This document shows, one piece after another, positions 1,728 through 60,048 of a DNA stretch of 64,000 bases. The position numbers and the translations under genes were made by a program. This DNA comes from Zingiber officinale (lineage: Eukaryota; Streptophyta; Magnoliopsida; Zingiberales; Zingiberaceae), in NCBI RefSeq assembly GCF_018446385.1, contig NC_055996.1, forward strand, positions 130,000,532 to 130,064,531, in the 5' to 3' direction. Positions within the stretch are counted from its first letter, which is position 1, and each line of letters starts with the position of its first letter. The notes beneath the pieces are model-generated. The model was not told where the DNA came from and made no database searches. It was given only the letters and a program-made list of their open reading frames with translations.

Positions 1728-2761
1728 TGTTGGAGCAATCTAGGTGCCCTAGGTTTTGATGTTTGGGCAAAGGTTTAAGTTAGGTTTATTGTTGTATTTG
1801 ATATGCATTGTGAGTGTGCAGGATACAAGTACAACAAGAAAAGTCCAAGTGTGATCTTGGCAAAGGAGGAAAGTCCAAGAATGAGTCTTGGCGGTGTAAG
1901 TCCAAGCATGTAGTCTTGGCAACGTAAGTCCAAGTGTGACTTGGCAATGGATGAAGCCCCGAAGGTGAGGAGCCTCTTGGCAAAGGAAGACCCGACAATA
2001 TGGACAAGGCCGAAGGAAGCTCCAGAAGGCAAGACGTGAAGGATGGGGAGACATCCGAGGGACGCGAGGCTGATGGAGGAGGCTAGAAGGCTAGGTCTAG
2101 GTTGGTCGGGAGAGAACGAGTGCTGAGTGAATGTACTCGAGGCAAAATCCTAAAATTAGGGTTTACTGTAGCGTTACTGTAGCAGTACTGTAGCAGTCGA
2201 CTGATGATTGTAGCAGTCGACTGATGCACTGTAGCAGAGAGCCGTTGAGATAGCCGTTGGCACCAGTCGACTGGTGCATTGACCAGTCGACTGGTAACGG
2301 GCAAATCAGCTTTCTGATTTGCTCCAAGCTCTATAAGAAGGAGCTTGGGATGGCCGGCCAAGGTGACGAAATTAGACTTGGTTAAAGCCTAATTAGTAGT
2401 CACCAAAGTGCTCAAGAGATCTTTGTGTGCCAAGAGGTCTTGGTTGGAGTTGTGGTGAGGTTTCTCCACCCACAAGGAGGTTGAGCTAGCCGGAGTTTGC
2501 CGGGGACTAATCCACCGACGGATTGAGGGATCATCCACCTTACGGACACGCCGTGGAGTAGGAGCAAGTTATCTCCGAACCACGTACACGCCTTGTGTTA
2601 GGGTTTGTGTTTGGTTTGTTGTCTTCTTCCTTCTTGTTTTAGGTTAACTTTCGTATTTGTTAGTTTGTTTTTGTATTCCGCTGTGCACTAACATTATAGG
2701 AAGTAAAGTTTTGGGTGAGACGCTATTCACCCCCCCTCTAGCGGACGTCAAGGTCCCAACA
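1728..2761 (+). repeat. 3' LTR (TG...CA, about 1.03 kb)
   Basis: The LTR starts TGTTGGAGCAATC directly after a polypurine tract (AAAAAGGGGGAGAT) and ends GGTCCCAACA. CAGTCGACTG-type palindromes at 2195-2300 sit just upstream of a TATA-like CTATAAGAAG (2331-2340). The end shows the C-run and purine-rich pattern seen in the other LTRs here. Confidence 0.75.
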
Positions 2762-3529
2762 AAATAGCCGTTGAAGATAAGCCGTGAGCGAAAGGAGAAG
2801 AAGAGATGCGATAGGGATAGAAAATTTCAAATAGAAAAGGAGGAGAAGACTTATCTTTTGAGTCCTCTTTCTCGTAGGCGCAGGTGAAGCCGAAGGCAGC
2901 AGCCAGCAGGGGCACCGCGACGAGTTCTTCATCGCACAGCACAGGTGTAGGCAGCGGAAGAAAAGCCCTAAATCTAATCCTGCACTACACCTATTAAAAT
3001 TTAAACATAATATTTTTTTAAAAAAAATTTTGGGCCCCCCAAAACTCAAGGCCCAGGGCCATCGCCCAGGATGACCCTCCTCCAGAGCCGGGCCTGGGAA
3101 TACAGTGAGCCAAATGCTGGATCTTGAGACCCCGAGCACCAGATTATCATACAAGGGTTGCTCGCCAAAATCTGGGAGGACGCCCGAGCCCGTGCGACAA
3201 TAATGACTCCCAAATGCCCACTAGAGTAAGTACTTTAATGTAAATTCATAGTTTACCTCCGATTGACGCTTACGAACTCCTTTTTATTTGCCTGCAGTAC
3301 TGGGTGAAAAGCTTGGTCATGTGCCACAGGCTCGCGTATCTTGAGGAGGAAGTAAAATAGCTTAAAGCGTCGAGCGACTAATCCTCCCCCGCTCAGGAAA
3401 AGACTGACGTCGAGGTGGCTAGGCTCCGAGCTGCTCTGGAGAAGAGCAAGAAGCTGCTCAAGGCCGAGCGGGCAAAGATCGCCGGTCAGGCCACCATGCT
3501 GGAGCGACTTAACAAATAAGTCGCCACTT
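2762..3529. other. Intergenic repeat debris with a coiled-coil ORF relic
   Basis: No intact gene. At about 3295-3519 the plus strand reads as a Leu/Glu/Lys-rich coiled-coil-like fragment (for example VARLRAALEKSKKLLKAERA), preceded by a good splice-acceptor-like TTTGCCTGCAG and, further left, GAGTAAGT; it contains a stop and has no start. It looks like a piece of a decayed transposon- or host-derived ORF whose family I do not recognise. The stretch 3000-3110 holds a GGGCCC-rich segment of repeat character. Confidence 0.4.
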
Positions 3530-4353
3530 ATTATAGAAACTACAATATATTTAAAGTGAATTTAAAACTTTAGGTCTAAAATTTATACTATATAAAAACT
3601 ATCAAGTAGCTATTATATATATAACATGTAAAAACTACTCAATATCTGTTACAAACGTATTTATGAAGACTTTAGATTAAGATTTAGGGTCACAAAAGCT
3701 ACATAATAGCTTTTACAATTATTTAAAGTGATTTTAACGAAGTTTAAATAATCTTGGCCAAGTTGATAAATAATATTATTTATATAATAATATTCAGAGA
3801 TCCTAAACCCTAAATCTAAAATCCTAAACTCATACTAAAAATATTATAGCAATTATTGAGTAACTACTATATATCTACTGAATAATTTTTACATGGTATA
3901 AATGTTAGATTTGAAATCCTAAACTCATTCTAAATATGCTGTAATAACTACTCGGTAGCTTCTGTAATAGTTGTAGATAGATTATTTGAGATAAGATCAT
4001 GGGAAGATCACCCATTTGATTTTTTTTTTTTAAAAAAAAAATCGTACGTTTGATGATTGGCAAAATTTGAGACGGTCTTTTAATTTTTGCCAATTTATAA
4101 TTACAATGGGGATTAAGAATAAGAAAAGAATAAATAAATAAATAACTATCATGTCAAAAATAAATAATTCATAATTAAATCATTCTAATGGGTGTTAACT
4201 GTTGGAAATTTTAGATTATACCCGACTCGATGCACTGTAACCTTCTCCATGTAACGCAGTTTGGCCTATTCGTAAAAACAACACTATTCGTAAATCCCTA
4301 TCTCCAATCTCCACCCTACTACTAAAGGAACCGATGACAGCAGCAACAAGAAA

Positions 4354-4425
4354 ATGACGGAGGATGCAATTCTAGGTTTCCTCCAGTCCAACGACGAGAT
4401 TGTCGACTCTCATGAATTTATCTAA
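4354..4425 (+). pseudogene. Decoy copy 1 of synthetase exon 1 (23 codons)
   Basis: An ATG plus 22 codons ([13 protein letters not shown]... ending HEFI) and TAA copy the start of the alpha-subunit gene at 10280. After His-Glu-Phe the copy leaves the gene sequence and meets a stop at once. A promoter-like flank precedes it, so it could be transcribed, but no functional peptide can be claimed. Confidence 0.8.
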
Positions 4426-5539
4426 GGATTGAGCTATAATTTTAATAAATTAACAAATAAATTCTCTTTAATGAATATTTGATTTAAGAATAATGAACTA
4501 ATAAACCGCCCAATATAAGTGCTTTCAGATTTACTCTACTAGTGGGAAAATTATGTGGGATCAGATAGATCACCCCAAGATTAATCGATATAAAATAGAT
4601 ATTTAGTGCCAACTAAAAAAAGTACGCCAATAAATTAAGAGAAACATCATATCATATGCACATTTCTTATTTCTAAAAATTAAATGGGCTCTCCTCAGAT
4701 CCAAAAATTCTCTTGAATCTATCAATATTATAGAAACTACAATATATTTAAAGTGAATTTAAAATGTTAGGTCTAAAATTTATACTATATAAAAACTACC
4801 AAGTAGCTATTATAACATGTAAAAACTACTCAATATTTGTTACAAACGTATTTATGATGACTTTAGATTAAGATTTAGGGTCACAAAAGCTACATAATAG
4901 CTTTTACAATTGTTTAAAGTGATTTTAATGAAGTTTAAATAATCTTTGCCAAGTTGATAAATAGCATTTTTTATATAATAATATTAAGAGATCCTAAACC
5001 CAAAATCTCAAATCCTAAACTCATACTAAAAATATTATAGCAACTACTGAGTAACTACTACATATCTACTGAATAATTTTTACATGGTATAAATATTAAA
5101 TTTTAAATCCTACACTCACTCTAAATATGTTGTAATAACTACTCGGTAGCTTCTGTAATAGTGCCAGATAGATATTTTAAGATAAGATCATCAGAAGATC
5201 ACCCATTTGATTTTTTTTTTAAAACAAAATTACACGTTTGATGATTTGTAAAATTTGAGATGGTCTTTTAATTTTTGCTAATTTATAATTACAATGGGGA
5301 TTAAGAATAAGAAAAAGAATAAATAGATAAATAACTATCATGTCAAAAGTAAACAATTCATAATTAAATCATTCTAATGGGTGTTAACTGTTGCAAATTT
5401 TAGATTATGCCTGACATGCACTGTAGCCTTCTCCATGTAACACAGTTTGGCATATTCGTAAAAACAACCCTATTCGTAAACTACTATCTCCAGTCTCCAC
5501 CCTACTACTAAAGGAAGCGGCGACAGCAGCGGCAAGAAA

Positions 5540-5611
5540 ATGGCAGAGGATGCGATTCTAGGTTTCCTCCAATCTAACGACGAGATCGTCGACTCTCATG
5601 AATTTATCTAA
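5540..5611 (+). pseudogene. Decoy copy 2 of synthetase exon 1 (23 codons)
   Basis: Same structure as the copy at 4354: ATG, then [23 protein letters not shown] and TAA. The leader retains the GGAAGCGGCGACAGCAGCGG type sequence found before the real start codon. Confidence 0.8.
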
Positions 5612-6367
5612 GGATTGAGCTATAATTTTGATAAATTAACAAATAAATTTTCTTTAATGGATATTTGATATAAAAATACTGAACTAATGAACTGCCTAAT
5701 ACAAGTACTTTCAGATTTACTCTACTAGTGGGAAACTTATGTGGGATCAGACCGATCACCCCAAGATTAATCAGTATAAAATAAATATTTAGTGCCAACT
5801 AAGAAAAGAATGCCAACAAATTAAGAGAAACATCCTATCATATGAACATTTCTTATTTCAAACAATTAAATGGGCTCTCCTCACATCTAAAAATTCTCTT
5901 GGATTTAGCAATATCATAGAAACTACAATATATTTAAGGTGAATTTAAAATTTTAGGTCTAAAATTATACGTTATAAAAACTACCAAGTAACTGTTATAA
6001 CATGTAAAAACTATTCAATAATTGTTATAAACGTATTTATGATGACTTTAAATTAAGATTTAGGGTCATAGAAGCTACATAATAGCTTTTATAATTTTTA
6101 AAGTGATTTTAACAAAGTTTAAATAATCTTGGCCAAGTTGATAAATAGTATTTTTTATATAATAATATTCAGATATCTTAAACCCTAAATCTGAAATCCT
6201 GAACTCATACTAAAAATATTATAGCTACTGAGTAGCTACTACATATCTACTGAATAAATTTTACATGATATAAATGTTAAATTTTAAATCCTAAACTCAC
6301 TCTAAATATGTTATAATAATTACTTGGTAGCTTCTGTAATAATGTCAGATAGATATTTTGAGATAAT

Positions 6368-8777
6368 TGTTGGTTGCTACTCGGAAAACCTAATGGTTCA
6401 ACTGTACAAAAATTTTGTACAAAGGTCTAAACCTTTTCCTAGCTACCATGTGTTCTTTTAAATTAAACTTGGATCGCCTGCGGAACTTAACACGTTTGAT
6501 CCAAAATTTAATCTATTTGTTCTTTTAGGTTTAGACTCGGATCTCCTGCGAAACTTAACACGTTCGATCCAAATCACCTAGGTTATTAATTTCATTAAAT
6601 ATTAGTTTCCAAAATTGGCTCCCAATACTGACGTGGCGAGGCACCTGACCTTCTTGGATATGGGAACAACCACCACCGACTAGACAAAGCCTTTTAAGGA
6701 AAGTTAATATTTAATTTCCTTAAATAACTTTAGGTCAACCGAAAAGAACAATCAAATCACAAGGAAAAGAAAAAACAAAAGAACACAACATCGAAAACAA
6801 ATTCGAAATACTAGAATCGTATGCCTATTGTATTTGGTATTATTTCCAAAAATAACTAGTATGATGCGGAAAGGAAAAATACTAGTTATACCTTTTAGAA
6901 AGACCTCTTGATCTTCTACCGTATTCCTCTTCTAACCTCGGATGTTGTGTGGGCAACGATCTTCCAAGATGAGGACCACCTAACACCTTCTTCTTCTTCC
7001 TTCAAGTTTCGGCCAAGCACCAAAATCCAAGGATGAAGAACTTTTTCCACCAACTAAGCTCCAAGGGATGCAACCTTTCTCTCCTTCTTCTTCTTCTTCT
7101 CCAAGTAGTATCCGGCCACCACAAGAGCTCCAAGCAAAATAAGGTTTCGGCCACCACAAAGAGGAAGAGAGGGAGAGAGGATGACCGACCACAACACCAA
7201 GGAAAAGAGGGAGAGAATAATAGAGGTTGTGTCTCATGAAAGCACCCCCAACCCCCTCTTTTATATTCCTTAGCTTTGGTAAATAAGAAAATTTAATTAC
7301 AATAAAATTTCCTTAACTTTCCTTGATAACAATTAATTAAGAAAAATTAAATAAAATTTCCTAATCAATTGTATATGGCCAGCCACCTCATGGAGAGCAA
7401 ATAAGATAATTTTCAATCAACAATTAAAAATTCCTTATTTGTCTTCAAAAATTTTAAAAAATAAAATTTCTCTTTACAATCCCTTCATGGTAAATAAAAA
7501 GAAATTTCTATAATTTTAATTTTTCTACATGTGAATAATTTATAAAGAAGAAAAAATAAAATATCTTTCCAATCTACAAATAAGGAAAGAGATCTAATAT
7601 CTTTCTTTAATCTTTTGTAGATCCTTTTAAAAGAGATATTTTAATTTTAAATCTCTCCAATAAATTATATCTTTCACATAAGAAAAATTTTAAATTAAAA
7701 TTCTTTTTAATTTAATGGGGGTCGGCCACCTAAGCTTGGGTTCAAGCTAGGGCCGGCCACCCATGAAACAAGGCTTGGTCGGCCCTAGCTTGAACCACAA
7801 GCTAGCTTGGCCGGCCCCTACATCATGGGTACGAAGGTGGGTATAGGTGGGTATAGTACTCTATAAATAAGAGGCTACGATAGGGACCGAGAGGAGGAAT
7901 TGGTTTTGGTCTCCCGATAAAATTAAGCATCCCGTGTTCGCCCCGAACACACAACTTAATTTTATTAATAATAATTCATTCCACTAGAGAACTATTATTG
8001 AACTACCGCACTAATCCCAAATTACATTTTTGGGCTCCTTCTTATTATGAGTGTGTTAGTCTCCCTGTGTTTAAGATGTCGAATGCTCACTAATTAAGTG
8101 AGTTACTGACAACTCATTTAATTAATATCTTAATCCAAGAATAGTACCACTCAACCTTATCGTCATGTCGGACTATGTCCACCTGCAGGGTTTAACATGA
8201 CAATCTTTATGAGCTCATCTTGGGGACATTATCAACCTAGATTACTAGGACACAGTTTCCTTCTATAATCAACAACACACACTATAAGTGATATCATTTC
8301 CCAACTTATCGGACTTATTGATTCATCAAACTAAATCTCACCCATTGATAAATTAAAGAAATAAATATCAAATATATGTGCTTGTTATTATATTAGGATT
8401 AAGAGCACACACTTCCATAATAACTGAGGTCTTTGTTCCTTCATAAAGTTAGTATAAAAGGAACGACCTCAAATGGTCCTACTCAATACACTCTAAGTGT
8501 ACTAGTGTAATTATATAGTTAAGATAAACTAATACCTAATTACACTACGACCTTCCAATGATTTGTTCCTTTCCATCTTGGTCGTGAGCTACTGTTTATA
8601 ATTTATAAGGAACCGATAACATGATCTTCTGTGTGTGTCACCACACACCATGTTATCTACAATATAAATTAATTGAGCAACTACATTTATCGTAAATGTA
8701 GACATTTAACCAATGTGATTCTTATTTTTAGATAAATGTTTATACCAAAAGCTAGACTTTTAGTATACATCCTAACA
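6368..8777. mobile_element. Solo LTR, about 2.4 kb, inside repeat unit U3
   Basis: TG...CA-bounded (TGTTGGTTGCTACTC ... ATCCTAACA), flanked by the 5-bp target duplication ATAAT (6363-6367 and 8778-8782). There is no internal coding part, so it is read as a solo LTR. A strong TATA-like CTATAAATAAGAGG near 7862 favours plus orientation, with GGCCGGCC palindromes and matching AAGCTAG arms just upstream (7718-7830). A second copy lies at 36375-42737. Short ORFs inside it are not genes. Superfamily uncertain. Confidence 0.8.
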
Positions 8778-9105
8778 ATAATATCATGGGAAGATCATCC
8801 ATTTGATTTTTTTTTTAAAAAAAAAATCCGTATGGTCTTTTAATTTTTGCCAATTTATAATTACAATGGGGATTAAGAATAAGAAAAGAATAAATAAATA
8901 ACTATCATGTCAAAAGTAAATAATTCATAATTAAATCATTCTAATGAGGTTAAGTGCAAATTTTAGATTTTGCTTGACTCGATGCGTCGTAACCTTCTCC
9001 ATGTAATGTAGTTTGGCCTATTCGTGAAAATAATCCTATTCGTAAACCTCTATCTCCAGTCTTTACCCTACTACTAAAGGAGGCGGCAACAACAACGGTA
9101 AGAAA

Positions 9106-9177
9106 ATGGCGGAGGATGCGATTCTAGGTTTCCTCCAGTCTAACGACGAGATCACCGACTCTCATGAATTTATCTAA
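9106..9177 (+). pseudogene. Decoy copy 3 of synthetase exon 1 (23 codons)
   Basis: ATG, then [23 protein letters not shown] and TAA. It belongs to U3 and lies downstream of the inserted solo LTR, so its ancestral upstream flank has been displaced by 2.4 kb and the LTR is its nearest upstream promoter. Confidence 0.8.
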
Positions 9178-10195
9178 GGATTGAGCTATAATTTTGATAA
9201 ATTAACAGATAAATTTTCTTTAATGGATATTTGATCTAAGAATACCGAACTAATGAACCACCCAATACAAGTGCTTTCAAATTTACTCTACTAGTGGGAA
9301 ACCTTATGTGGGATTAGACCGATCACCAAAAGATTAATCGGTATAAAATAAATATTTAGTGCCAACTAAGAAAAAAAGGCCAACAAATTGAGAGAAACAT
9401 CCTATCATATGAACATTTGTTATTTCAAAAAATTAAATGAGCTCTCCTCACATCCAAAAATTCTCTTGAATCTAGCAATATTATAGAAACTAAATATATT
9501 TAAAGTGAGTTTAAAATTTTAGGTCTAAAATTTATACTATATAAAAATTACCAAGTAACTGTTATAACATGTAAAAACTACTCAATATTTGTTACAAACG
9601 TATTTATGATGATTTTAAATTAAGATTTAGATCATAGAAGCTACATAATAACTTTTGCAATTATTTAAAATGATTTTAACGAAGTTTAAATAATTTTGAC
9701 TAAGTTGATAAATAGTATATTTTATATAATAATATTAAGAGATATTAAATCCTAAATCCCAAGTCCTACTCATACTAAAAATATTATAGCAATTATTGAA
9801 TAGCTACTATATATCTACTGAATAAATATTACATGATATAAATGTTAAATTTTAAATCCTAAACTCATTTTAAATATATTGTAATAATAACTCTATAGTG
9901 CCAGATAGATATTTTGAGATAGGATCGAAGATTACTCATTTGATTTTTTTTTTAAAAAAAACTCTTACGTTTATGATTTGTAAAATTTGTGATGGTCTTT
10001 TAATTTTTATCAATTTATAATTACAATGAGGATTAAGAATAAAAAAATAAATAATTTTCATGTTAAAAATAAATAATTCATAATTAAATAATTCTAATGG
10101 GTGTTAACTGTTGGAAATTTTAGATTTTGCCAAGATTTTATCCGACTCGATACACGTAACTTTCTCCATATAATGCAGTTTGGCCTATTCGTGAA

Positions 10196-36300: not shown

Positions 36301-37061
36301 TGGTCTCTGGCAAATGTCAGGAAATGTCGGGTGTCAGATCTTGTCTAGGGGTAAGTGCCACATGGCATCCTATCTGTTGGTTGCTACTCGGAAAATCTAA
36401 TGGTTCCACTGTACAAAAATTTTGTACAAAGGTCTGAACCTTTCCTAGCTACCATGTGTTCTTTTAAATTAAACTTGGATCACCTGCGGAACTTAACACG
36501 TTTGATCCAAAGTTTAATTTATTTGTTCTTTTAGTTTAGACTTGGATCTCCTGCGGAACTTAACACGTTCGATCCAAATCACCTAGGTTATTAATTCCAT
36601 TAAATATTAATTTCCAGAATTGGCTTCCAGGACTGCATGGCGAGGCACATGACCTTCTTGGATATGGGAACAACCACCACCGCATAGGCAAAGCCTTTTA
36701 AGGAAAGCTAATATTTAATTTCCTTAAATAACTTTAGGTCAACCAAAAAGAACAATCAAATCACAAGGAAAAGAAAAATAAAAGAACACAACATCGAAAA
36801 CAAATTCGAAATACTAGAATCGCATGCCTCTTGTATTTGGTATTTTTACATGAAGATAAAACTAGTATGATGCGGAAATTAAATACTAGTATACCTTTTC
36901 TTTTGTAAGTAAAAACCTCTAGGTCTTCTATCGTATTCCTCTTCTAACCTCGGACGTTGTGTGGGCAACGATCATCCGAGATGAGAAACCACCAAAGCAC
37001 CTTCTTCTCCTTTCTTCAAGTTTCGGCCAAGCACAATGCTTCCAAAAGATGAAGATCTTTT

Positions 37062-38851: not shown

Positions 38852-40088
38852 CTATTTCTTTTTTAGTTTTTCATTTTCAATTTTTAGTTTTTCAAAATCC
38901 TCTATAAGACATGATTTTGCCAAAATTCTCTTTATTTCTAAAATTTCATTTTCTAATTTGGCATTTTTATTTTCTAATTTGTACATGGATTTAGTCATAG
39001 CTTTGATACCAAAGTAAAGTTCATCAGGGGGTAAGAGACATACCTCACTTACCATATCAGACTTGAAGCCTGAATCTCCGCTACTTCCATCTGAAGTCGC
39101 TCCCCCTTCATCGATGCTGGGTTCTGATGTACTTTGTCCTTCGTGGCTTGCCATCAGTGCAATCCCCGCATATTCTTGAGCTTCTGATTCAGATGAAGAA
39201 GTGTCATCCCAAGTTACTTTTAGGTTGTGTTTCTTGGGTGTCTTCAATTTAACCTTCTTGAGTTCTGGGCAGTCTTCCCTTAGGTGTCCCTCCTTCTGAC
39301 ACTGGTAGCACCGTACCTTTCTTCTACCTTTTTGATTCTTTTTATTCTGCATTTTAAATTTATTAAATCTAAAAAACTTTTTAAAGTTTCTTACCATGTA
39401 CGCTTCTTGATCGTCTTCGGAGTCTGACTCGAGTTCATCCTTGTTGGTTGCGTTCAGCGCCATAGTCTGGGTTGTGTCCTTTGATATCTCTGCATATCTA
39501 GTTTCGTGTAATTCAAGGGTAGAAAACAATTCTTCTAAAGTACTTACTTCCAGGTCTTTCGAGATGTAGTAAGCATCGACGATTGATGTCCACTCCGGAG
39601 TTCTTGGAAACGCGTTGAGCGCGTAGCGTATAGTGTCCCGGTTTGTTACCGTTTCACCAAGGTTTTCGAGACCAGTAACTAGTTCTTTTACCTTTGCATA
39701 TAGACCGGCTACTTTCTCACCTTTCTCCAGACGGATGTTCATCAGTTTGTTGCGGAGGATGTCCCTTCTAGCGAGCTTTGCTTCGGACGTGCCTTCGTGG
39801 AGTTCCAAGAACTTCTCCCAAAGTTCTTTAGCAGATAAATAGTTTCCGATGAGGTTGACCTCTCAGCAGGTGATGTTCCGCACGGCTGTTTGCTACCGAC
39901 TCATTCTGCTCCTTCTTTGTCCAATCGCTCTCTTCTTTTTCTTTTCCATCTTTATCTATTGGAGCTACAAAATCATATTTCATAATAAATCGAATTTCAA
40001 AATATGTTTTTAGGAATACCTCCATACGACGCTTCCAGTCTGCGAAGTTCCCCTCGAATTTTGGTGGAACAATGCTTGGTCCGGCCAT
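38852..40088 (-). CDS. Gag region with one zinc knuckle (fossil)
   Basis: Two open stretches in gag order: 40088-39828 (MAGPSIVPPKFEGNFADWKR...) and 39808-38852 (318 codons). The second has the copia-gag core (MNIRLEKGEKVAGLYAKVKE), a CCHC knuckle CYQCQKEGHLREDC and a C-terminal coiled coil (LENKNAKLENEILEIKR). The element as a whole lacks pol, so mobilisation would need another element's enzymes. At least one break separates the two stretches. Confidence 0.8.
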
Positions 40089-40146
40089 CTTTGTTGCTTC
40101 GATCGGCGGTTAGTCCTCCTGAAGCGCGCCTAGCTCTGATACCACT

Positions 40147-41014
40147 TGTTGGTACCTTTGGAGGCCGACAAGAGGGGAGGGGTGAATTGCCCTACAAAAT
40201 AAAACTCGAACCTTTCTCAGATTTCAACTATATAATGAACACTTGAAATAAATAAATAAAAGAGACTAAGTAAAGAAAAGCAGACACCAGAGTTTTACTT
40301 GGTTTGCAATCAGGGGATTGCTAATCCAAGGAATGTAAGCGAACTATCTGATTCTCCTCTTGCCGGAGTAGCCTCTTTACAACGTTGACAACACAAATGA
40401 ATAGAACAGAATTGAAAGCACAGAAGGAATTGATTACAAGTGAGTTCTAATGATCTGTGCAAACCAGTGCTATATTTATAGCACTGGTCGGGGCGCCCCG
40501 AAGGGGTTCCGGGAGCCCTAGGGGGATAAAACTTTATCCCCCAACGTTCAGATCGAGTTTGACTCGATCTGGTCAAAAACTTCGGTCCGGGCGCCCCGGA
40601 CCCCAAAAGTCAACTCTGGTTGACTTTTTCCGTCCGGTCGCTCCGCTTCGGTTCAGCTCGTTTCGGTCCGGGTCTTCTGTTCCGGCTCCACTAGCTTGGG
40701 TGATCTCGGCCATCCGGAATAGGGCTCACCCGAACCCATGTTCCGGCCTTCTCCTCGAGCAGCCTTCTCGGTTTCTCGTCCCTCGAACGCCGCGCACGTT
40801 CTTCTCGTCCACCGGTGTACTCTTCCGCGGTCACCTTATCCCTCGGACGCACCGAGCCCGTCGGCTCTCTCCCGTGCCGTCCTTCTCGCTAGCCGCGTCT
40901 TCCGCTCGACTTCCTGTGTTCCTAAGCTCCTGCACACTTAGACACAAGGGTTAAACAAACGCAGGACCTAACTTAGCTTGTTTGATCACATCAAAACACC
41001 TTGGGGTTCCAACA
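40147..41014 (-). repeat. 5' LTR of the minus-strand gag-only element
   Basis: Pairs with 37062-37933. It shows GGGGCGCCCC at 40491-40500 and CCGGGCGCCCCGG near 40587, again just upstream (in element sense) of the TATA box at about 40468-40482. Confidence 0.85.
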
Positions 41015-42912
41015 CTTTTTCCACCAACCATGCTCCAAGGGATACAAACTTTCTCTCCTTCTTCTCCAAGCTAGAATCCGGCCACCACTTGATCTCCAAA
41101 GAAGATGTGAGGTTCGGCCACAAAGGATGGAGAGAAGAGAAAGGGGATAGCCGGCCACACCAAGGAAGAAAAGAGGGAGAAAATAATAGAGGTTGTTCAC
41201 CTTGAAGGCTCCCAAAACCCCCCTCTTTTATAATCCTTAGCCTTGGCAAATAAGGAAATTTAATTACAATAAAATTTCCTTAACTTTCCTTGACATGAAT
41301 TAATTAAGAAAAATAAAATAAAATTTCCCAATTAAACATGTCATGGCCGGCCACCTCATGGAGAGCAAACAAGATAATTTTTAATCAACAATTAAAAATT
41401 CCTTATTTGTCTTCGGAAATTTAAAAAAAATAAAATTTCCTTTTAAAATCCATTCATGGTTGATAAAAAGAAATTTCTATAATTTTAATTTTTCAACATG
41501 TGAATAATTTACAAAGAAGAAAAATAAAATATCCTTCCAATCTACAAATAAGGAAAGAGATCTCTTTCTTTAATCTTTTGTAGAGACTTATAAAAGAGAT
41601 ATTTTAATTTTAAATCTCTCCAATAAATTATATCTTTCACATAAGAAAATTTTAAAATTAAAATTCTTTTTTAATTTAATAGGGCCGGTCACCTAAGCTT
41701 GGGTTCAAGCTAGGGACAGCCACCCATGAACCAATGGTTTGGCCGGCCCTAGCTTGATCCACAAGCTAGCTTGGTCGGCCCCTATATCATGGGTATGAAG
41801 GTGGGTATAGGTGGGTATAGTATTCTATAAATAAGAGGCTACGATAGGGACCGAGAGGAGGAATTGGTTTTGGTCTCCCGATAAAATTAAACATCCCGTG
41901 TTCGCCCCGAACACACAACTTAATTTTATCAATAATAATTCATTCCACTAGAGAACTATTATTGAACTACCGCACCAATCCCAAATTATATTTTTTTGGG
42001 CTCCTTCTTATTATGAGTGTGTTAGTCTCCCTGTGTTTAAGATGTCGAATGTCCACTAATTAAGTGAGTTACTGACAACTCATTCAATTAATATCTTAGT
42101 CCAAGAATAGTACCACTTAACCTTATCGTCATGCCGGACTAAGTCCACCTGCAGGGTTTAATATGACAATCCTTATGAGCTCTTCTTGGGGACATTATCA
42201 ACCTAGATCACTAGGACACAGTTTCCTTCTATAATCAACAACACACACTATAAGTGATATCATTTCCCAACTAATCGGGCTTTGATTTATCAAACTAAAT
42301 CTCACTCATTGATAAATTAAAGAAATAAATATCAAATATATGTGCTTGTTATTATATTAGGATTAAAAGCACACACTTCCATAATAACTGAGGTCTTTGT
42401 TTCTTTATAAAGTCAGTATAAAAGAAAACAACCTCTGATGGTCCTACTCAATACACTCTAAGTGTACTAATGTAATTATATAGTTAAGATAAACTAATAC
42501 CTAATTACACTACGACCTTCCAATGGTTTGTTCCTTTCCATTTTGGTCGTGAGCTACTGTTTATAATTTATAAGGTACTGATAACATTATCTTCTATATG
42601 TGACACCACATACTATGTTATCTACAATATAAACTAATTGAACAACTACAAACAAATGTAGATAATTTGACCAAATGTGATTCTTTATTCAAAATAAATG
42701 TTTACGAAAGCTTAGGCTTTCAGTATACACTCTAACACTATCATAGGTTACAAGAAGGTTCTTCTGGTAATGAGTCATGGATCATTGGAATATACCCTTA
42801 CATACAATGATTATTCTCTGACAAGTGGCTACAATTCTCTGGCTTAGTTGTCATGTAGTGACCTACCGTCTTGTAGGGAGAAGTTCCGGCTGACCGATCT
42901 ATCCCGACCAAC

Positions 42913-49551: not shown

Positions 49552-50390
49552 TGTTGGTGTAGTTGACATCAATGGTCAAACATATATTTTAATGAATGAC
49601 AAATGGTTAAAGTTAGGTTATGTGTTATCTGATATCTTTATCAAGTGTGCAGGAATTGACGGATCTAGAGGACCTGACACTAGACTGAAATTCTGCTAGG
49701 TTTGTGGACTTGATAGCTGGTGGGAGTGACTAAAATCCTAATTTTAGGATTTTACTGTAGCGTAACTGTAGCAGTACTGTAGCGTTACTGTACCAGTCGA
49801 CTGCTAAAACATGCAGTCGACTGGGTGTAAACAGAATGATTCTGTTCGTTCGGTCAGTGGGGATCAATCGACTGCATGTTTTAGCAGTCGACTGATATCG
49901 AGCTGTTGGGATGTAACAGTCGAATTTCCATAGAGGGGAGTAGACTGCATGTTTTGGTAGTCGACTGGTAGGCGGGGTTTTCAACCCGCGACCTATATTA
50001 CCAAAGCTTGGGAGCTTGGTTATAGTTGACGAAATAGAGGTGGTTAATCTCTATTAGTAGTCTACCTGTGCCCTAGCTTGTAAAGAGTCCTTGGTGAGAG
50101 TTGTGGTGAGGTTTCTCCATCCACAAGGAGCTACGTGAGCTAGCCAGAGATCTTCCGGGGAGTAATCCACCGACGGATAGAGATCGTCCACCTCAAGGAC
50201 ACGCCGTGGAGTAGGAGCTTTATCTCCGAACCACGTAAATGATCGTGTAGCTTGGTTTGCATTCTTTCTTGTCTTTAGTTTAATTTCCTTTAGCTTGTTT
50301 GTTTTGTATATTCTGCTACGCATACTAACAAGTGTAGGAAGATCAATCAATTTGGGGGCGCCGTCTATCCAACCCCTCTTTAAGCCGGCC
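49552..50390 (+). mobile_element. LTR fragment or solo LTR with CAGTCGACTG palindromes
   Basis: Starts TGTTGGTGTAGTTGACATC at 49552. CAGTCGACTG-type palindromes occur at 49792-49970 just before a TATA-like CCTATATTACC (49990). Its downstream part (TTGTGGTGAGGTTTCTCC, ACCGACGGAT, GGACACGCCGTGGAGTAGGAG) matches the LTR at 1728-2761, so the two are related families. The right boundary is not clear. Confidence 0.65.
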
Positions 50391-50439
50391 GACCGATCCC
50401 CTACATACACTACTACTCCGTGGCATCCAACTACTGCTG

Positions 50440-51834
50440 GCAGACCAACACCGACACATGAGCTTGTTCAGACTCTACACCTCTAAGTGTTGGTAAAGCT
50501 TTAATATTTTTGTATATCTTTCTTACTTGCAAAAGGAAAGTGTAGACTGTTACTGATCTTGTACGAAAGCCGATGAGATGGATGCGGGGGACGTGACGCT
50601 CCTGCTGACCTCCTATGGACTTCGTGGACTCTGCTCTTGCCTGCAACACAAGCAGCGTCAGTGCTGAGCCAGAGAAGGGGTCCCCGACGATGACCCTCCG
50701 ATGCTCATGTCAGTCTCCGACGAAGCAAGAAGAAACAAGAAGAAGCAATGAGAACTGTGGCGCAACAGTAGAAATCGTGTGTTAAGCATACCTCCGCCGA
50801 TGCTTGGATCCCCTTTATATAGAGCCTCGAAAGCGTACGTTTACGCTTCCCAAGGTGAGCACGCATCACAAAATTTTTTCTGAAAAGACGTGTCAGTAAA
50901 GTATTCCTAAGACAGTACCTTAATGGATCGAGCATATCTCTGAAGTGACAGTAGAAGCTTCCGCCTTACGATCTTCTGTCTGACCATGTCGCCTGTAAGC
51001 GGCACTAGCTCCCAAAAGGATATCAAAATATATCCTGATGTGTTTGTTACTTGGCCGAGTGGAATGGCCGCTCGGCCAGAATTATACTATCCTTGAGCTG
51101 TCTACTGTTACGCCGAGCGAGATAGCCGCTCGACTTAAAGTTCATTGTTGCGCCAGCGGGGATAGCCGCTCGGCTGAAAGTCCGCTATCCTAGTGTCGTC
51201 CGTTACCGGGCCGAGCGGGACAACGGCTCGGTCGGAAGCCCACTGTCCACATGCTCCATCGCTAGGCCGAGCGGGATAGCCGCTTGGCATGCAGTTCACT
51301 GTCAGTGTACTCATCTGATGTCGAGTCTGCTGCTAGGCTGAACGGAGGAGCCGCTCGGCTCGGCTTCTGCACGTCCGTTGAGCGTCGGTTTGATTATTCC
51401 TTATGTCAAAGATGATGGGTCGGTGCTTGAGCCCCAGTCAGAGTATGCCTCGCCCGACCAGCCAACACCGTCCACTCGTTGACCGTCTTGACTTTGACTT
51501 CCTTTGACCTCCACCGTGGCAGCGGGGTGGGGCCCCTCATCATCAACACATCAGTTACATTTTCCCTTTTTTTGTACTTGTATTCGATTCCGTCTTCCAG
51601 CAATTCTAGAATAGGTTTATAGTGGATTACCCATCGATACGGTTTGAGAAATCGTGGGTCTTGGAGTAAGAGTTGTCGAAGGCTCCGAACCAAATAATCG
51701 CTTCAGTCTTTCTTATCTTTTCTCGTCTTCTATTTTCGTTTATTCCGCTGCGTACTTAATTTCAAAATAAAAGAAAGTTTTTTAAAATCACATGATTCAC
51801 CCCCGTCTTTCATGATATCCAAAAATATCCAACA
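50440..51834 (-). mobile_element. LTR fragments with hairpin repeats
   Basis: A minus-strand TATA box CTATATAAAGGGG (50811-50823) and, upstream of it in element sense, hairpin repeats at 51050-51375. The right end (51690-51834, ending CCAACA) resembles the tail of a plus-oriented LTR, so more than one fragment may be present. No coding part recognised. Confidence 0.5.
51050..51375. repeat. ~65-bp repeats each containing a GCCGAGCGG/CCGCTCGGC hairpin
   Basis: About five units: GCCGAGCGGGATAGCCGCTC followed by GGC and a variable spacer with CCACTGTCC- or GTTCACTGTC-like text. Each unit forms a 9-bp stem with a 4-6 base loop. Confidence 0.75.
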
Positions 51835-52794: not shown

Positions 52795-54270
52795 TGTTAG
52801 GACCAAAAGTAGCTATAGGGGGGGTGAATAGCTCGTCGCGTTCGCTCGGTGCGCTTCGTTGCTTGGCGTTGCTTGTTTCTTCTTGGATGTGCAGCGGAAA
52901 ATACAGAAACAAACACAAAACGCTAACACTAGGATTTTACTTGGTATCCACCTCACAAGAGGTGACTAATCCAAGGATCCACACCAACGCACACACCCTC
53001 CACTATGAATAACACTCCTTTATGGTAACTACCAAAGGCGGAGAAGCCCTACAACACTCTCAATACAAGAAGAAGAAAGGGAAATACAAGTTAAGCAAAA
53101 GCTTACAAGATGTGCAGTAAAAACCCTAACCCTAACTTCTTCCTCTTGCAATAGATCCGCCTCTTGACTTGGAAAGCCTCCAAGAACCTTCAAGAACTGG
53201 CGATCACGTGCTTGTAGAGAGCTGTGGAGGAGCTGGAATGAATCTGAGAAGAGCTCGTGAAGAGATGCCGAAGACCACGCTCGCCTGCGGCTTTAAACCC
53301 GACGCAACGGTCGGATCCCGATCGATTCAAATGTTCCGAATCGATCGGGGAGGCTTTGGATCGATCCACGGATCGATCCAGAGCGCCTCTGTGCTCTGGA
53401 AACGCGCCTGGATCGATCCACGGATCGATCCAGCGCTTATCACGCGAAGCAGCATCGTCCCGATCGATCGGGACCTCTGGATCGATCCACGGATCGATCC
53501 AGAAGCTTTCTGTTCGCTGGGAAGAACCTGGATCGATCCACTGATCGATCCACATCCTGGATCGATCCAGCACTTGGTTTTTGCCCAAAACCAAGTCCCA
53601 AACCTCCCTAACCAACATCCGGTCAACCTTGACCTGTTGGTACATCATGCCTCGCATCTGGTCACTCCCTTGACCTGCCAGGACTCCCCACCAAGTGTCC
53701 GGTCAATCCCTTTGACCCACTTGGACTTTTACTCGTCGTGCCAAGTATCCGGTCACTCCATTGACCTACTTGGACTTCCACCAGATGTCTGGTCAACCTT
53801 GACCCATCTGGACTTCCTTCCTTGCCAAGTATCCAGTCAATCCTTTGACCTACTTGGACTTCCCAACACCAGATGTCCGATCATCCTTGATCCATCTGGA
53901 TTTCCTTCCTTGCCTGGCTTCACTCACCAGGACTTTCACCTAGCTTCACTCACTAGGGTTTTCCATCTGCCTAGCTTCACTCACTAAGACTTTCACCTGG
54001 CTTCACTCACCAGGATTTCCTTCTGCCTAGCTTCACTCACTAGGACTTTCACCTGGCTTCACTCACCAGGATTTCCTTTTGCCTAGCTTCACTCACTAGG
54101 ACTTCCTTCTGCCTAACTTGCCAGTTAGGACTTCCCAGTCAAGTATCCAGTCAACCTTGACCTACTTGACTCTTCTTCAATCAATATCTTATTGTCAAAC
54201 ATCTAAACCCTAACCAAGACTCAGCTTGGTTAACCAGGTCACCCTTGACCTGAGGGATATTGCACCAACA
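52795..54270 (-). repeat. 3' LTR with GGATCGATCC palindromes and stem-loop series
   Basis: In element sense (right to left): a series of stem-loop repeats (54180-53640), then GGATCGATCC palindromes (53580-53330), then a TATA-like TTTAAAG (about 53292-53298). Overlapping long frames on both strands here (for example 53169-53987) arise from the palindromes and are not genes. Confidence 0.9.
53640..54180. repeat. Series of stem-loops with matched arm changes
   Basis: About twelve hairpins in a row. Type 1 has an outer stem and an inner stem: CCAAGTG..CACTTGG with GGTCAA..TTGACC inside; others use CCAAGTA..TACTTGG, CCAGATG..CATCTGG, TCAAGTA..TACTTGA, and one swaps the inner stem to GATCA..TGATC. 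Type 2 is CCTGG-cttcactca-CCAGG alternating with CCTAG-cttcactca-CTAGG, and one CCTAAC..GTTAGG. The second LTR has the same series at 59400-59945. Confidence 0.85.
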
Positions 54271-55154
54271 ATCTCCCCCTTTTTGATGTTTGACAATACC
54301 ACAATAACACTTACAATCCCACATGTAAGTTAGGTTAATCCTATAGCCTCCTTCTTCATGCCACTAGGTAATGAACCCATAAATTAAGCTTTCCATTCTC
54401 CCCCTAAGAGGGAAAACTCCCTCTAGGTAATGAAAACCTAACTTACTTCCTTTCATTCTCCCCCTATTGGCACACATCAACCCCCTACAAAAAACATCAA
54501 CCCGTCTTTGGACACACATCAACCTATGCTCCAATTTTGGGCACACTTCAACAACTCCATTTGTTGAAGACTCTCCCCCTGAAGAGTTGCTCATCGTGAT
54601 CACAATTTCACTCATTGTGATCAACTCAATATTGAAGGTCCCATACCCTTCATTATCCTTAACTTCTCCCTCAATGTTGACAAATACCCAACCTTGAGCA
54701 TTTTCAATCACTTGAGTTACCACTTGAAATGATGAGGATATCCACTCCCCATTTATCCCCATTTTAAGTTTAAATGCTCAACCTTGAGCAAGTTCACAAC
54801 AGAAGGTTAACCACCTTCCAAGGTTCATGAAAAATAATTTTCATGTCTTTAAAGAGTCCCTCCCCCTAAAGACATGGTGGTAACTTCTGTCATTGCACCA
54901 ACAATGACTTGGAATCCCTAAACCTCTAGGAAACCCAGATTTAGAAGTTTTGAGGTTCAAATGTTCAAAATTTGAAACAAACCTCAACCTAAACTTCAAT
55001 GAAGTCTTCCTTAACCATTCCATCCTTGTTTTCAACACGAAAACACCCTTTTTATGTATACAAATGTATTTTAAGGGTTTGGAATGGTTACCTAGACTAA
55101 AATAGGTTCAAAGTGCTGAAATCAGGCTTTCCCAGCCAAAATCAGCAACTTGGA

Positions 55155-55325
55155 TCGATTGAGTTGGGTTCCAATCGATTGAACCTTCAATCGATCCACC
55201 GATCGATTCAGACTACCGGATCGATCGGCTGATCGATCCAGTGAGCTTCTGCTCATGGATTTGTTTTCCAATCGATCCATGGATCGATTCAGCACTCCAA
55301 TCGATCCATGGATCGATCGAGACTC
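55155..55325. repeat. ATCGAT palindromes in the element interior
   Basis: Seven or more GATCGATCC/CAATCGATTG-type sites lie between gag and the 3' LTR, outside both LTRs, echoing those inside the LTR of the same element. Confidence 0.8.
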
Positions 55326-56631
55326 GATAGTTGCTGAAATTCCATTTCAGTCAACTTCAGAAATCCCTAGAAAATTCTACAAAAATCCAAAAATTATGAA
55401 ATTTCGTGTAGACATTGTTTAGGGCATATATTATCAAGGAAAAATAGTTTTCTATAAAAATACATCATCTTTTCAAAGATTGACACAAACTTGAAAACTT
55501 GCAAAAACTTTAGTGTTTTCTTCAAGTTTGTGTCTAACTATTCAATGGTGATTACTATCAAAAGATAGTCTTCACCAAGGTTTTCCAAAAACATTTTAAA
55601 AACATTTTCAAAACCAATATCCCATCATGTTCCTTGGGCATAATGCACATGACTTGTACATTAGCTTTCCCAATGATGGGAAAACACATATCTATGTGTT
55701 TTGATGAAACTAAAACTCAAAAGAATGTACTAAATCAACATCTTGAGTTTTGTTCATCATCCTAACATCTCACTTGTATCTAATGTGCACTAAAACACAT
55801 ACAAGTCATCTTATAGGTCTTTGTGAGATGTAGAGATTTTGGTTTTTGCCCTAATCTAGGGATCATGCATATCTATCTAGGCATTTTGGAGATATTAGAC
55901 ACCCACCTAGGATGTCACTTGTTAGTAAGTGTTGTTAAATGCCTTTTGTCCTTAATTACAAGGAATTAAACTAATGCATGATAATGTTATGGCATACATC
56001 AAAAATAAATAATTTTCAAAGGAAAATATCCTATAATCACATGATGTATGAATGTCATGACATGGTATTTTTGGATTTTTCATAATAAAACATGAACGCA
56101 AAAATAGACATGATGTCATGACATATGATGGGCAAACAATCATGGCAAGATTTAGCATAAATAAAATATACCTAGATTAACTATCTAAGTATCCTTAAAA
56201 CCTTAGCTAAACTTACAACTTAAACCTAGATTGCCCTAAAGTGCTTCAAGAAAATGTCAAAGCCTAAATTGACATTTCTAATTCCCTTGATTAATTTATG
56301 CCAGTCGAAATTAAGCATATCCTCAAATGTTGGCATATTTCATTTTTCCACAAGAGAGGCACTTTTAAATTTAAGGCCCGGATTGCCTTAAATTTCCTAA
56401 GAACATACCAAAATCCCAACTTGGTAGTTCTCAAGATTTTCCTAATTTGTGCCATTTTAAGATAAAATCAATTTTCCACCATTAGGCACATTTTACTCTT
56501 TCAAGGAGTAATTAATAGTTCCATTTCATTTTCAAAGGTTAGCAAAAACCTTGAAAATGCTCCTTGAGTGTCAATTTCCTCAAAGTTGGGTTAACTACCC
56601 TTCTAATTGGAGTTGACACTCTCTAACCCAT

Positions 56632-58479
56632 TTATGGGATAGAGAAGATGCTCCTAGGAACCCAACACCTATTTGTGCTCCTTGGATGCTCTAGGTACTC
56701 ACTAGGGATAGCTTCCCTAGATACCTTCCTAGTGACCTTGTTGGGCTTCTTAGAAGCCTTGGTCACATTTTCTAGGTCAACCCTAGGGATTTCTTCCCTT
56801 GTGACCTTCTTTGTGACCTTCTTTGACTTCTTAGAAGTCTTAGTCACATTTGTTGCAAAAATACTCTTAGGGATGACTTCCCTAATATTTTTGACTTGAC
56901 CACTAGACCTAGGGTTTGTTCCATAACTATATGGAACCCTATGGTAAGAGGGCACATCCTTCTTAGCCTTGGGTTTGTATCCCAAACTTCTATGGCCATT
57001 AGATGACCTATGTGCTCCTAGACCTAGGCTATGCTCATTTTGCCCTTTTAGGATATTTTCCATCCTTTTTAGGGTCTTTTCCATGTTATCAAGCCTTGAC
57101 CTCAAGACTTGATTTTCTATCATTAAATCCTTAGAATTTGGTTTTTCATTAAGTCCATGAGCATTTTGGTTTCTAGGCTTGTATCTAAAATCCTTAGAGT
57201 TATTGCCTAGACTTTTACCTACATTCCTAACCCTAGGAGTGATAGTCTTAGCATGTAGGGCCACATGCTTTTCCTTAAAGCCCTCATGCTTTCTATTCTT
57301 ATGGTAAATTGCATTAAAATGATAAAAGTTAGACCTATCATGCTTTTTACCATAATGTAAAGGAGTAGGCTCAATAAATGTTACCTTCTTCTTTACCTTG
57401 GAGGCTCCCCCTTGACTAGTGCCTCCTTGAGCCTTGACCTTCTTCTTCCCCTTGGGGCATTGACTACGATAATGCCCCTTTTGATTGCAAGAGAAGCATA
57501 TAATATGCTCCTTGCTCTTCTTTGTGTTGGGGATGGTCTCCTTGGGCTTCACCTTGCCCTTTTGTGCCACTTGGCCCTTCTTCTTTACTAATTTAGGGCA
57601 CTTGCTCTTGTAGTGCCCATGTTCCCTACATTCAAAGCATATAATATGATTTTTATTATTAATTGAAATATTTATACCTTTGCTTGTAGGGGTGGCAACT
57701 TTTTCTTTGGATCCGGAGGTAGAAGCTTCCTCTTGATCGGACCTTGATTCTCCTCTATTTGATTTTTCTTGACTTGTGGAGGTAGAAGCTTCTTCCTCCT
57801 CTTCTTCTCTTGACCCGGATGTAGAGGCTTCTCCTTCTTCTTGATCCGGTGTCACCAAGGATTGCTCCCCCTCAATCCTAGAGGTGGAGGCTTCATCATC
57901 TTGAATATGAAACAAGGAATATGCTCCCTCCTTGTTCCCTTCGTTGCATTCCCTTGAGGATGAAGCTTCTTGGATTTCCTCTTCTTCGGAGGTTGAGCAT
58001 CTCTCAACCTCGGAATCCTCCTCTTGGTCTTGCTCCAAAGAGTCTCCCTCTCTGGATTCTTCTTGATCTCGTACAGTGGAGGGGATCTCTTCATGAAGCT
58101 TGGCCAATTTGCTCCAAAGCTCCTTGGCATCTTCGAATTCTCCAACTTGAGCCAAGATGTGGCTAGGCAATAAGTTGACCAAAAGCTTGGTCACTTTGTC
58201 ATTTGCCTCGCCCCTTTGAATTTGCTCCGAGCTCCATCTGCTTTTCTTTAGAAGCTTGCCCTTGGAGTTCGTTGGAGCTTTGAAGCCTTCCATTAGAGCA
58301 AACCATTGCTCTATCTCCATCATAAGAAAGTTTTCGATTCTTGATCTCCAAGAATCAAATCTCGTAGAAGTGTATGGTGGAGCCACCCTTGTGTCAAATC
58401 CAAGTCCATCTTGGAATTGCATCTTGAAGTTGAGCTTGATGAAGTCTTGAACTTGAAGAATTTGCTCCAACTTCTTCAC
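56632..58479 (-). CDS. Gag polyprotein with two zinc knuckles (fossil element part)
   Basis: One open frame of 615 codons. The N-terminal third has the copia-gag pattern (RFDSWRSRIENFLMMEIEQW, then KVTKLLVNLLPSHILAQVGE and AKELWSKLAKLHEEIP). The middle is acidic and repetitive (EEEEASTS-type, about residues 140-260). Two CCHC knuckles follow: CFECREHGHYKSKC and CFSCNQKGHYRSQC. The C-terminal part is basic with a coiled coil (ENQVLRSRLDNMEKTLKRME) and a repeated KKVTKKVTREEIPR. The frame looks whole. There is no protease, integrase or reverse transcriptase. Confidence 0.85.
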   Translation of the reverse strand: MKKLEQILQVQDFIKLNFKMQFQDGLGFDTRVAPPYTSTRFDSWRSRIENFLMMEIEQWFALMEGFKAPTNSKGKLLKKSRWSSEQIQRGEANDKVTKLLVNLLPSHILAQVGEFEDAKELWSKLAKLHEEIPSTVRDQEESREGDSLEQDQEEDSEVERCSTSEEEEIQEASSSRECNEGNKEGAYSLFHIQDDEASTSRIEGEQSLVTPDQEEGEASTSGSREEEEEEASTSTSQEKSNRGESRSDQEEASTSGSKEKVATPTSKGINISINNKNHIICFECREHGHYKSKCPKLVKKKGQVAQKGKVKPKETIPNTKKSKEHIICFSCNQKGHYRSQCPKGKKKVKAQGGTSQGGASKVKKKVTFIEPTPLHYGKKHDRSNFYHFNAIYHKNRKHEGFKEKHVALHAKTITPRVRNVGKSLGNNSKDFRYKPRNQNAHGLNEKPNSKDLMIENQVLRSRLDNMEKTLKRMENILKGQNEHSLGLGAHRSSNGHRSLGYKPKAKKDVPSYHRVPYSYGTNPRSSGQVKNIREVIPKSIFATNVTKTSKKSKKVTKKVTREEIPRVDLENVTKASKKPNKVTRKVSREAIPSEYLEHPRSTNRCWVPRSIFSIP

Positions 58480-58554
58480 CCTCTAGCTTTTCTTGATATG
58501 CTTGACCCTTCCGGCGATGATTCCGGTGAAGAGCGGCCTTGCTCTGATACCACT

Positions 58555-60048
58555 TGTTAGGACCAAAAGTAGCTAGAGGGGGGAGGGGGTGAATAGCTCG
58601 TCGCGTTCGCTCGGTGCGCTTCGTTGCTTGGCGTTGCTTGTTTCTTCTTGGATGTGCAGCGGAAAATACAGAAACAAACACAAAACGCTAACACTAGGAT
58701 TTTACTTGGTATCCACCTCACAAGAGGTGACTAATCCAAGGATCCACATCAACGCACACACCCTCCACTATAAATAACACTCCTTTATGGTAACTACCAA
58801 AGGCGGAGAAGCCCTACAACATTCTCAATACAAGAAGAAGAAAGGGAAATACAAGTTAAGCAAAAGCTTACAAGATGTGCAGTAAAAACCCTAACCCTAA
58901 CTTCTTCCTCTTGCAATAGATCCGCCTCTTGACTTGGAAAGCCTCCAAGAACCTTCAAGAACTGGCGATCACGTGCTTGTAGAGAGCTGTGGAGGAGCTG
59001 GAATGAATCTGAGAAGAGCTCGTGAAGAGATGCCGAAGACCACGCTCGCCTGCGGCTTTAAACCCGACGCAACGGTCGGATCCCGATCGATTCAAATGTT
59101 CCGAATCGATCGGGGAGGCTTTGGATCGATCCACGGATCGATCCAGAGCGCCTCTGTGCTCTGGAAACGCGCCTGGATCGATCCACGGATCGATCCAGCG
59201 CTTATCACGCGAAGCAGCATCGTCCCGATCGATCGGCTGATCGATCGGGACCTCTGGATCGATCCACGGATCGATCCAGAAGCTTTCTGTTCGCTGGGAA
59301 GAATCTGGATCGATCCACTGATCGATCCACATCCTGGATCGATCCAGCACTTGGTTTTTGCCCAAAACCAAGTCCCAAACCTCCCTAACCAACATCCGGT
59401 CAACCTTGACCTGTTGGTACATCATGCCTCGCATCTGGTCACTCCCTTGACCTGCCAGGACTCCCCACCAAGTGTCCGGTCAATCCCTTTGACCCACTTG
59501 GACTTTTACTCGTCGTGCCAAGTATCCGGTCACTCCATTGACCTACTTGGACTTCCACCAGATGTCTGGTCAACCTTGACCCATCTGGACTTCCTTCCTT
59601 GCCAAGTATCCAGTCAATCCCTTTGACCTACTTGGACTTCCCAACACCAGATGTCCGATCATCCTTGATCCATCTGGATTTCCTTCCTTGCCTGGCTTCA
59701 CTCACCAGGACTTTCACCTAGCTTCACTCACTAGGGTTTTCCATTTGCCTAGCTTCACTCACTAGGACTTTCACCTGGCTTCACTCACCAGGATTTCCTT
59801 CTGCATAGCTTCACTCACTAGGACTTTCACCTGGCTTCACTCACCAGGATTTCCTTCTGCCTAGCTTCACTCACTAGGACTTCCTTCTGCCTAACTTGCC
59901 AGTTAGGACTTCCCAGTCAAGTATCCAGTCAACCTTGACATACTTGACTCTTCTTCAATCAATATCTTATTGTCAAACATCTAAACCCTAACCAAGACTC
60001 AGCTTGGTTAACCAGGTCACCCTTGACCTGAGGGATATTGCACCAACA
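58555..60048 (-). repeat. 5' LTR of the same element
   Basis: Pairs with 52795-54270. The clearest difference is a short extra palindrome block near 59228-59248 (GATCGGCTGATCGATCG type), which shows that the palindrome number changes between LTR copies. Confidence 0.9.

Follow-up and report, generated by a model that had tools for sequence, protein, structure and literature searches.

Palindrome arrays of the Sirevirus kind in long terminal repeats of Zingiber officinale, and the differing array types of close relatives

What are the short palindromes that recur before the TATA-like sites of several long terminal repeats (LTRs) in one stretch of the Zingiber officinale genome, how did they come to have one design, and what might they do? 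The stretch, hereafter the window, is 64,000 nucleotides of contig C11 in a 3.09 Gb assembly of 211 contigs. A preliminary description had seen at least six LTR families here, each of which had independently grown a palindrome of its own as sites for dimer-type proteins or for escape from silencing. We find arrays far beyond chance in the LTRs or fragments designated A, B, C, E and F, and weakly in D; they almost certainly belong with the RM-type boxes of Sireviruses, and close relatives among these LTRs carry different array types.

LTRs were located by comparing the window with itself, and their ends, primer-binding sites (PBS), polypurine tracts (PPT), TATA-like sites and target-site duplications (TSD) were taken from the sequence:

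1728-2761, plus strand: LTR A, assigned as the 3′ LTR of a Sirevirus, with AGGGGGAGATTG at 1718 directly upstream
6368-8777: solo LTR G
30082-33360, plus strand: element C, with LTRs at 30082-30985 and 32505-33359
37062-41014, minus strand: element D, TSD CTTTT, 3′ LTR 37062-37933 and 5′ LTR 40146-41014
49553-50420, plus strand: LTR B, 3′ end approximate
52795-60048, minus strand: element E, TSD ACTTC, 3′ LTR 52795-54270 and 5′ LTR 58553-60048

For each LTR, the most copies of any one 8-bp palindromic core were compared with those in 60 dinucleotide shuffles. The arrays and their linker counterparts are:

2194-2297, LTR A: AGTCGACT core four times, pairs 20 bp apart; no shuffle reaches four
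1092-1287, second A-type array, in the linker 441 bp before the 3′ LTR: AGTCGACT six times
49794-49966, LTR B: AGTCGACT four times; reached by no shuffle
30471-30607, element C, LTR at 30082: AGGCGCCT five times; reached by no shuffle
32880-32913, element C, LTR at 32505: AGGCGCCT twice; reached by 2 of 60 shuffles
37424-37515, element D, 3′ LTR: GGGCGCCC twice; reached by 1 of 60 shuffles
near 40492 and 40590, element D, 5′ LTR: GGGCGCCC twice; reached by no shuffle
51054-51359, fragment F: five copies of GCCGAGCGG-N5-CCGCTCGGC, with one or two mismatches each
53357-53570, element E, 3′ LTR: GATCGATC ten times, mostly as GGATCGATCC pairs 12 bp apart; reached by no shuffle
55219-55318, linker of element E: GATCGATC three times, at 55219, 55231 and 55311
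59122-59347, element E, 5′ LTR: GATCGATC eleven times; reached by no shuffle

Chance was rejected as the origin of these arrays on the shuffles, on expected counts and on reversed-pattern controls across the genome. In F, where no perfect palindrome is repeated, the five copies compare with 0.00 expected in the window (up to three mismatches allowed), and the F-type arrangement CCGAGCGG-N1..12-CCGCTCGG occurs 8,892 times in the genome against 361 for the reversed pattern. The corresponding genome counts for palindrome pairs are 36,857 against 14 (GGATCGATCC), 25,302 against 0 (AAGGCGCCTT), 29,047 against 6 (CAGTCGACTG) and 16,779 against 67 (GGTCGACC). At least three copies of one palindrome are present in 30 of 105 window tiles; the tiles with CpG-containing cores all overlap LTRs A, B, C or E or the linkers of A and E, and the remainder are A/T-rich or GAAGCTTC (57001, 57601).

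Much of the preliminary description thus stands, including the differing sequences on one design, but its array in the solo LTR at 6368 does not: the commonest palindrome of G, AAAATTTT, occurs three times and is equalled by 5 of 60 shuffles, and GGCCGGCC is simply over-represented (twice in G, at 7751 and 7809; six in the window against 0.15 expected). D, with two copies in each LTR, falls below its range of three to eight. The difference in copy number that it noted between the paired LTRs of E (10 and 11) is found in C also (5 and 2). The linker copies of A and E were absent from it.

TATA-like sites lie 3′ of the array along the direction of transcription at 2330 in A, 49992 in B, and 30657 and 33027 in C. 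On the minus strand they occur at 37385-37397 and 40470-40482 in D and at 50813-50824 in F, the orientation of which is not settled; a further one lies at 7860 in G. Element E has only TTTAAA, at 53290-53299 and 59055-59064 (minus strand).

The common design goes with a common lineage, A, C, D and E being Sireviruses (Ty1/copia) by their junction motifs. The terminal PPT, in which AGGGGGAG runs into AT and then the TG of the 3′ LTR, is an exact 12-mer at 1718 in A and, on the minus strand, at 37932 in D and 54269 in E. C differs from it by one base, with ATTA after the octamer at 32495; no adjoining PPT was seen at B, F or G. PPT octamers, of which a Sirevirus has about four, cluster before the 3′ LTR (seven in A at 1446-1718, six in C at 31084-32495, four in D, seven in E). 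The PBS, TATCAGAGC, adjoins the 5′ LTR at 30988 in C and, on the minus strand, at 40133 in D and 58541 in E; the 5′ LTR of A is not within the window. A polyC integrase signal stands near the LTR 3′ end in A (a C7 run at 2730), in C (30953 and 33323) and in E (52818 and 58578, as plus-strand G runs), and D has no polyC run of six. As to coding sequence, a copia-type gag passes the Pfam cut-off in the open reading frame (ORF) at 38855-39859 of D; in that at 56635-58479 of E a zinc knuckle passes it and a copia-type gag falls below it; and in C, where a complete copia coding region was not seen, the ORF at 31338-31865 has no Pfam match.

In addition, B and A share 85.5% identity over 159 bp, and C and D ~85-86% over ~320 bp. 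Six independent families are therefore rejected, and the common junction motifs together with these homologies indicate that the design is inherited while the palindrome sequence turns over. The Sirevirus group is very abundant in this genome, the exact 22-base junction of PPT and 3′ LTR occurring 17,289 + 17,510 = 34,799 times.

The first 50 matches listed for this junction, all on contig C1 within 6 Mb and thus from one region, served as a sample of LTRs. Because the loci were picked by the PPT junction, the PPT itself is present by choice; at least two PPT octamers lie within 1.2 kb at 47 of the 50 (mean 4.2), a C5-or-longer run is found at 30, with many of the scanned stretches ending short of the LTR end, and an inverted repeat round the terminal PPT matches at least 12 of 14 bases at 35, a count without shuffled control. 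One apparent switched array, L040, was rejected as an E-type LTR inserted ~94 bp into a C-type LTR, and the other 49 LTRs were kept. The scan covered the first 1300 bases past the junction, so that the counts may include copies from outside the LTR; in L015 the copies (1133-1242) follow the polyC run.

At least three copies of one 8-bp palindrome are present in 32 of the 49 LTRs, two copies in eight and no repeated palindrome in nine, against a mean of 0.04 and a maximum of two LTRs per 49 in 100 shuffled sets. Every core of the 32 arrays contains a CpG: GATCGATC in 14, CCGATCGG in seven, AGGCGCCT in five, GGGCGCCC in two, and TCGATCGA, AATCGATT, GGTCGACC and AGTCGACT in one each. The CpG observed/expected ratio is 1.22 in the arrays and 0.63 in the rest, and is higher within the array in 29 of 32 cases. 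Linkers also reach such counts: at 25 of 49 loci the 1.2 kb preceding the 3′ LTR hold at least three copies of one palindrome (nine A/T-only, seven GGTTAACC, eight GATCGATC, one AGTCGACT), so that a bare count does not single out LTRs. The threefold GGTTAACC lies in the linkers of seven loci of LTR family IV (L009, L012, L017, L020, L044, L053 and L057).

What could such arrays be for? Their internal geometry is informative. Spacing was counted by hand in the first 50 matches listed per type on C1, with gaps of 1-25 bases allowed. Among these, GGTCGACC pairs are exactly 21 bp apart in 42, CAGTCGACTG pairs exactly 20 bp in 35 (13 bp in seven, 12 bp in two), AAGGCGCCTT pairs 20-23 bp in 43 (17 bp in three, 12 bp in two) and GGATCGATCC pairs exactly 12 bp in 33. 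Similarly, in the LTR sample the GATCGATC interval is 12 bp in 55 of 113 cases (intervals up to 60 bp) and the GGCGCC interval 19-22 bp in 25 of 31. The GGTCGACC spacers, 33 distinct sequences of one length, have four middle positions near chance identity (0.23-0.34) and conserved edges. For three of the types, two helical turns are the simplest reading of the spacing.

We propose that self-symmetry, spacing, free spacers and place of the arrays go together because dimeric host proteins sit on the DNA. A host DNA-binding protein would occupy each palindrome as a dimer; in the three types, a pair spacing of about two helical turns would set two dimers on one face of the DNA, and these paired dimers could cooperate at the TATA promoter. 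The dimer-type sites of the preliminary description are thereby retained as the likeliest reading, by inference.

The same arrays could instead act at the RNA level, where hairpins or self-pairing of the transcript (the 3′ end of which contains U3) would serve dimerisation or packaging, or would chiefly be sources of small RNAs recognised by the host. Indeed, the arrays fold far better than shuffles, with z of -7.1 in A, -10.4 in B, -9.0 in C, -6.0 in D, -12.4 in E and -2.8 in F, as well as -8.3 in the linker of A and -7.2 in L048; the linker copies likewise lie near the RNA 3′ end; and passages of two studies place small-RNA hotspots at maize Sirevirus LTR palindromes (PMC5311732, PMC10760457), which also point away from the proposed escape from silencing, a claim that we do not find supported. 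However, hairpins need neither self-symmetric copies nor a fixed loop length, and positions 3 and 11 of the GGTCGACC spacers, which would oppose each other in a stem, are each T in 32 of 33, a kept mismatch. Strand-biased decay, as a test of RNA against DNA, offered too few independent sites. We consider a primarily RNA-level role unlikely, but both DNA-bound proteins and RNA hairpins may act, the hairpins being perhaps a cost or a second role of the arrays.

Conservation bears on a second alternative: that slippage or template switching during reverse transcription or replication expands and perfects palindromes that have no function. We masked palindromes from a third sequence, in place of an earlier test in which the mask came from one of the two compared sequences and so favoured palindromes; the hexamer GATCGG was the mask for the CCGATCGG set. 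Omitted were the second LTRs of one element (C2, D2, E2), L032, the homology of which to L026 stops at 513 bp, and L046, L008, L027, L051, L058, L005, L014, L020 and L050. Identities in palindrome, spacer and outside sequence were 0.939/0.794/0.911, 0.943/0.743/0.863 and 0.896/0.799/0.833 in three sets and 0.900/0.639/0.800 and 0.862/0.665/0.861 in the other two, so that palindrome identity exceeds spacer identity in all five sets and is nowhere below that of the remaining LTR.

Symmetry also extends beyond the core when compared with re-dealt arms: GGCGCC shows it at three positions (48 of 65 at the first, with 31.0 expected), GTCGAC chiefly at the first (27 of 43, with 13.4 expected) and ATCGAT at the second and third. 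A symmetric double change, AGTCGACT to AATCGATT, is seen at one homologous site, 2282-2295 of the window and near LTR position 540 of L016, where ACCAGTCGACTGGT of A is ACCAATCGATTGGT in L016. That copying made the palindromes as a by-product would agree with the copy numbers that vary between LTRs of one element (C 5/2, E 10/11) and with spacers being the least conserved part of the LTR. It would not explain the place before the promoter, the one dominant palindrome per array, a preferred spacing across unrelated palindromes, or palindromes that, though CpG-rich, are conserved as much as or more than the remaining LTR, and we regard it as quite improbable. Under our own proposal, slippage or unequal exchange would likewise alter the number of copies in an array.

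How does the palindrome sequence turn over? Relatives of C and D align over the first ~320 bp at 83-95% in most pairs (L046 at 76-80%, in pieces), and yet AGGCGCCT arrays are carried by C, L026, L030, L032 and L045, GGGCGCCC by D, L006 and L024 (single copies in L025, L046 and L054) and GGTCGACC by L048, L059 and L065. Arrays differ even between LTRs with 88-91% identity in their first 320 bp. L048 and L026, for example, are 91.4% identical over 324 bp and have none of seven palindrome types in common: in such natural pairs the outer LTR is common and the array is not. A second group consists of L022, L023 and L041, plus L015 and L034 by partial homology; it has AGGCGCCT five times in L022, GGGCGCCC in L015 (three), L034 (two) and L041 (one), and GGTCGACC arrays in L063 (eight) and L066 (four), the outer parts of which match L041 at 88% over 351 bp and 81% over 370 bp. 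Two LTR groups thus carry the same three array types. L059-L066 were selected for containing GGTCGACC pairs; L060 and L064 match no sample LTR, and L061 and L062 match short pieces only. L063 and L048 have in common an 82-bp stretch at 83% that spans the last pair and extends towards the TATA-like site, which suggests exchange of a promoter module. We envisage that array type changes when families recombine their promoter regions, as might occur between co-packaged RNAs.

These distributions bear on a third alternative, in which a protein encoded by the element binds the sites, for instance in anti-silencing or packaging, and each family evolves its own pair of protein and site. All 14 C/D-group LTRs and 13 of 15 in the E group carry only one of the seven tested types, and copies are present in linkers too, as might be expected of such pairing. 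Against it, the same three types are common to two LTR groups, groups II and IV are mixed, so that LTR type purity is incomplete, and a scan of seven window ORFs gave no DNA- or RNA-binding domain apart from the gag zinc knuckle. We hold this alternative to be very improbable.

Several observations weigh against host dimers on paired sites. Of the 32 sample arrays, 23 have a TATA-like match after the last palindrome, and in 15 it lies within 150 bp; in 17 of 49 LTRs no palindrome reaches three copies. The conservation test leans towards palindromes, since aligners take repeats as anchors. Relative to re-dealt arms, symmetry is absent from the arms of CGATCG and from the first position of ATCGAT. 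A two-turn reading leaves out the 12-bp type, and for GTCGAC pairs of the LTR sample the commonest interval is 41 bp (15 of 26), 20-21 bp being found in seven of 26. Finally, the CAGTCGACTG spacers are less variable (0.25-0.70 per position), and as they stay alike, descent may explain part of the fixed spacing. Taking both sides together, we favour with moderate confidence the mechanism as a whole, in which dimeric host proteins bind the DNA and arrays are exchanged as modules between families. A bolder version, which we offer tentatively and with some doubt, is that the arrays serve Sirevirus promoters as an address code with exchangeable parts: a limited repertoire of palindromes, paired at a distance of one or two turns, would pass between families as modules and so re-target an element to another dimeric host factor with its flanks unchanged; recurrence in groups with unalignable flanks and, through a grapevine motif, in a distant plant points in that direction.

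Other features of the window concern its surroundings. Element D sits inside a second copy of solo LTR G (36375-42737) that is ~90% identical to G (6368-8777) on both sides of D. G itself breaks a tandem repeat of ~1.19 kb at 3529-10192, and 33346-35880 holds repeats of 100-300 bp in both orientations, many inversion-related.

Palindromes of maize Sirevirus LTRs were reportedly treated in Genome Res. 2016, 26:226. Passages of two papers describe them as clusters in the regulatory region with strong predicted structure and as small-RNA hotspots (PMC5311732, PMC10760457); in maize, small RNAs were mapped, and the motif quoted there, CACCGGACNNNGTCCGGTG, is a different sequence from those here. 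Neither a preferred pair spacing nor array switching was found in the parts of PMC2829016 drawn on here or in passages of PMC5311732, PMC10760457 and PMC3414828, and 'helical' occurs in PMC2829016 in one reference title only. The pattern falls within a group already known, without the many independent origins claimed for it; what is added is the preferred spacing, the difference in array type among close relatives, and cores without CGG-CCG. These details make the purpose of Sirevirus palindromes directly testable, as spacing separates DNA-bound proteins from RNA hairpins.

The closest known system is the RM boxes, described, in the parts of the study drawn on here, as CpG-rich palindromes that stand before the TATA box in 13 Sirevirus elements, differ in sequence from element to element and recur within the upper half of the LTR, with extra linker copies in env-bearing elements (Bousios et al., 2010, BMC Genomics 11:89, PMC2829016). 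Since RM boxes were described in Sireviruses, the arrays are a feature of known kind: they too are multi-copy palindromes upstream of a TATA-like box (weak in D, not in G), CpG-rich and accompanied by linker copies. A CGG-CCG core is present in 12 of the 13 motifs listed in that source, Tnd-1 (ACAATCGATTGT) being the exception. Here this core occurs in F and in the GGTCGACC arrays (as CGGTCGACCG, which L048 carries and which Table 3 of PMC2829016 lists for a grapevine Sirevirus) and, unlike in most RM boxes, not in the palindromes of A, B, C and E. The turnover of U3 motifs among relatives also recalls the Tnt1 superfamily, whose members are said in the same source to differ mainly in transcription-controlling LTR motifs (PMC2829016), although Tnt1 is not a Sirevirus and is likened by description only. 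We class the arrays without CGG-CCG as Sirevirus LTR palindromes that resemble RM boxes and probably work in the same way.

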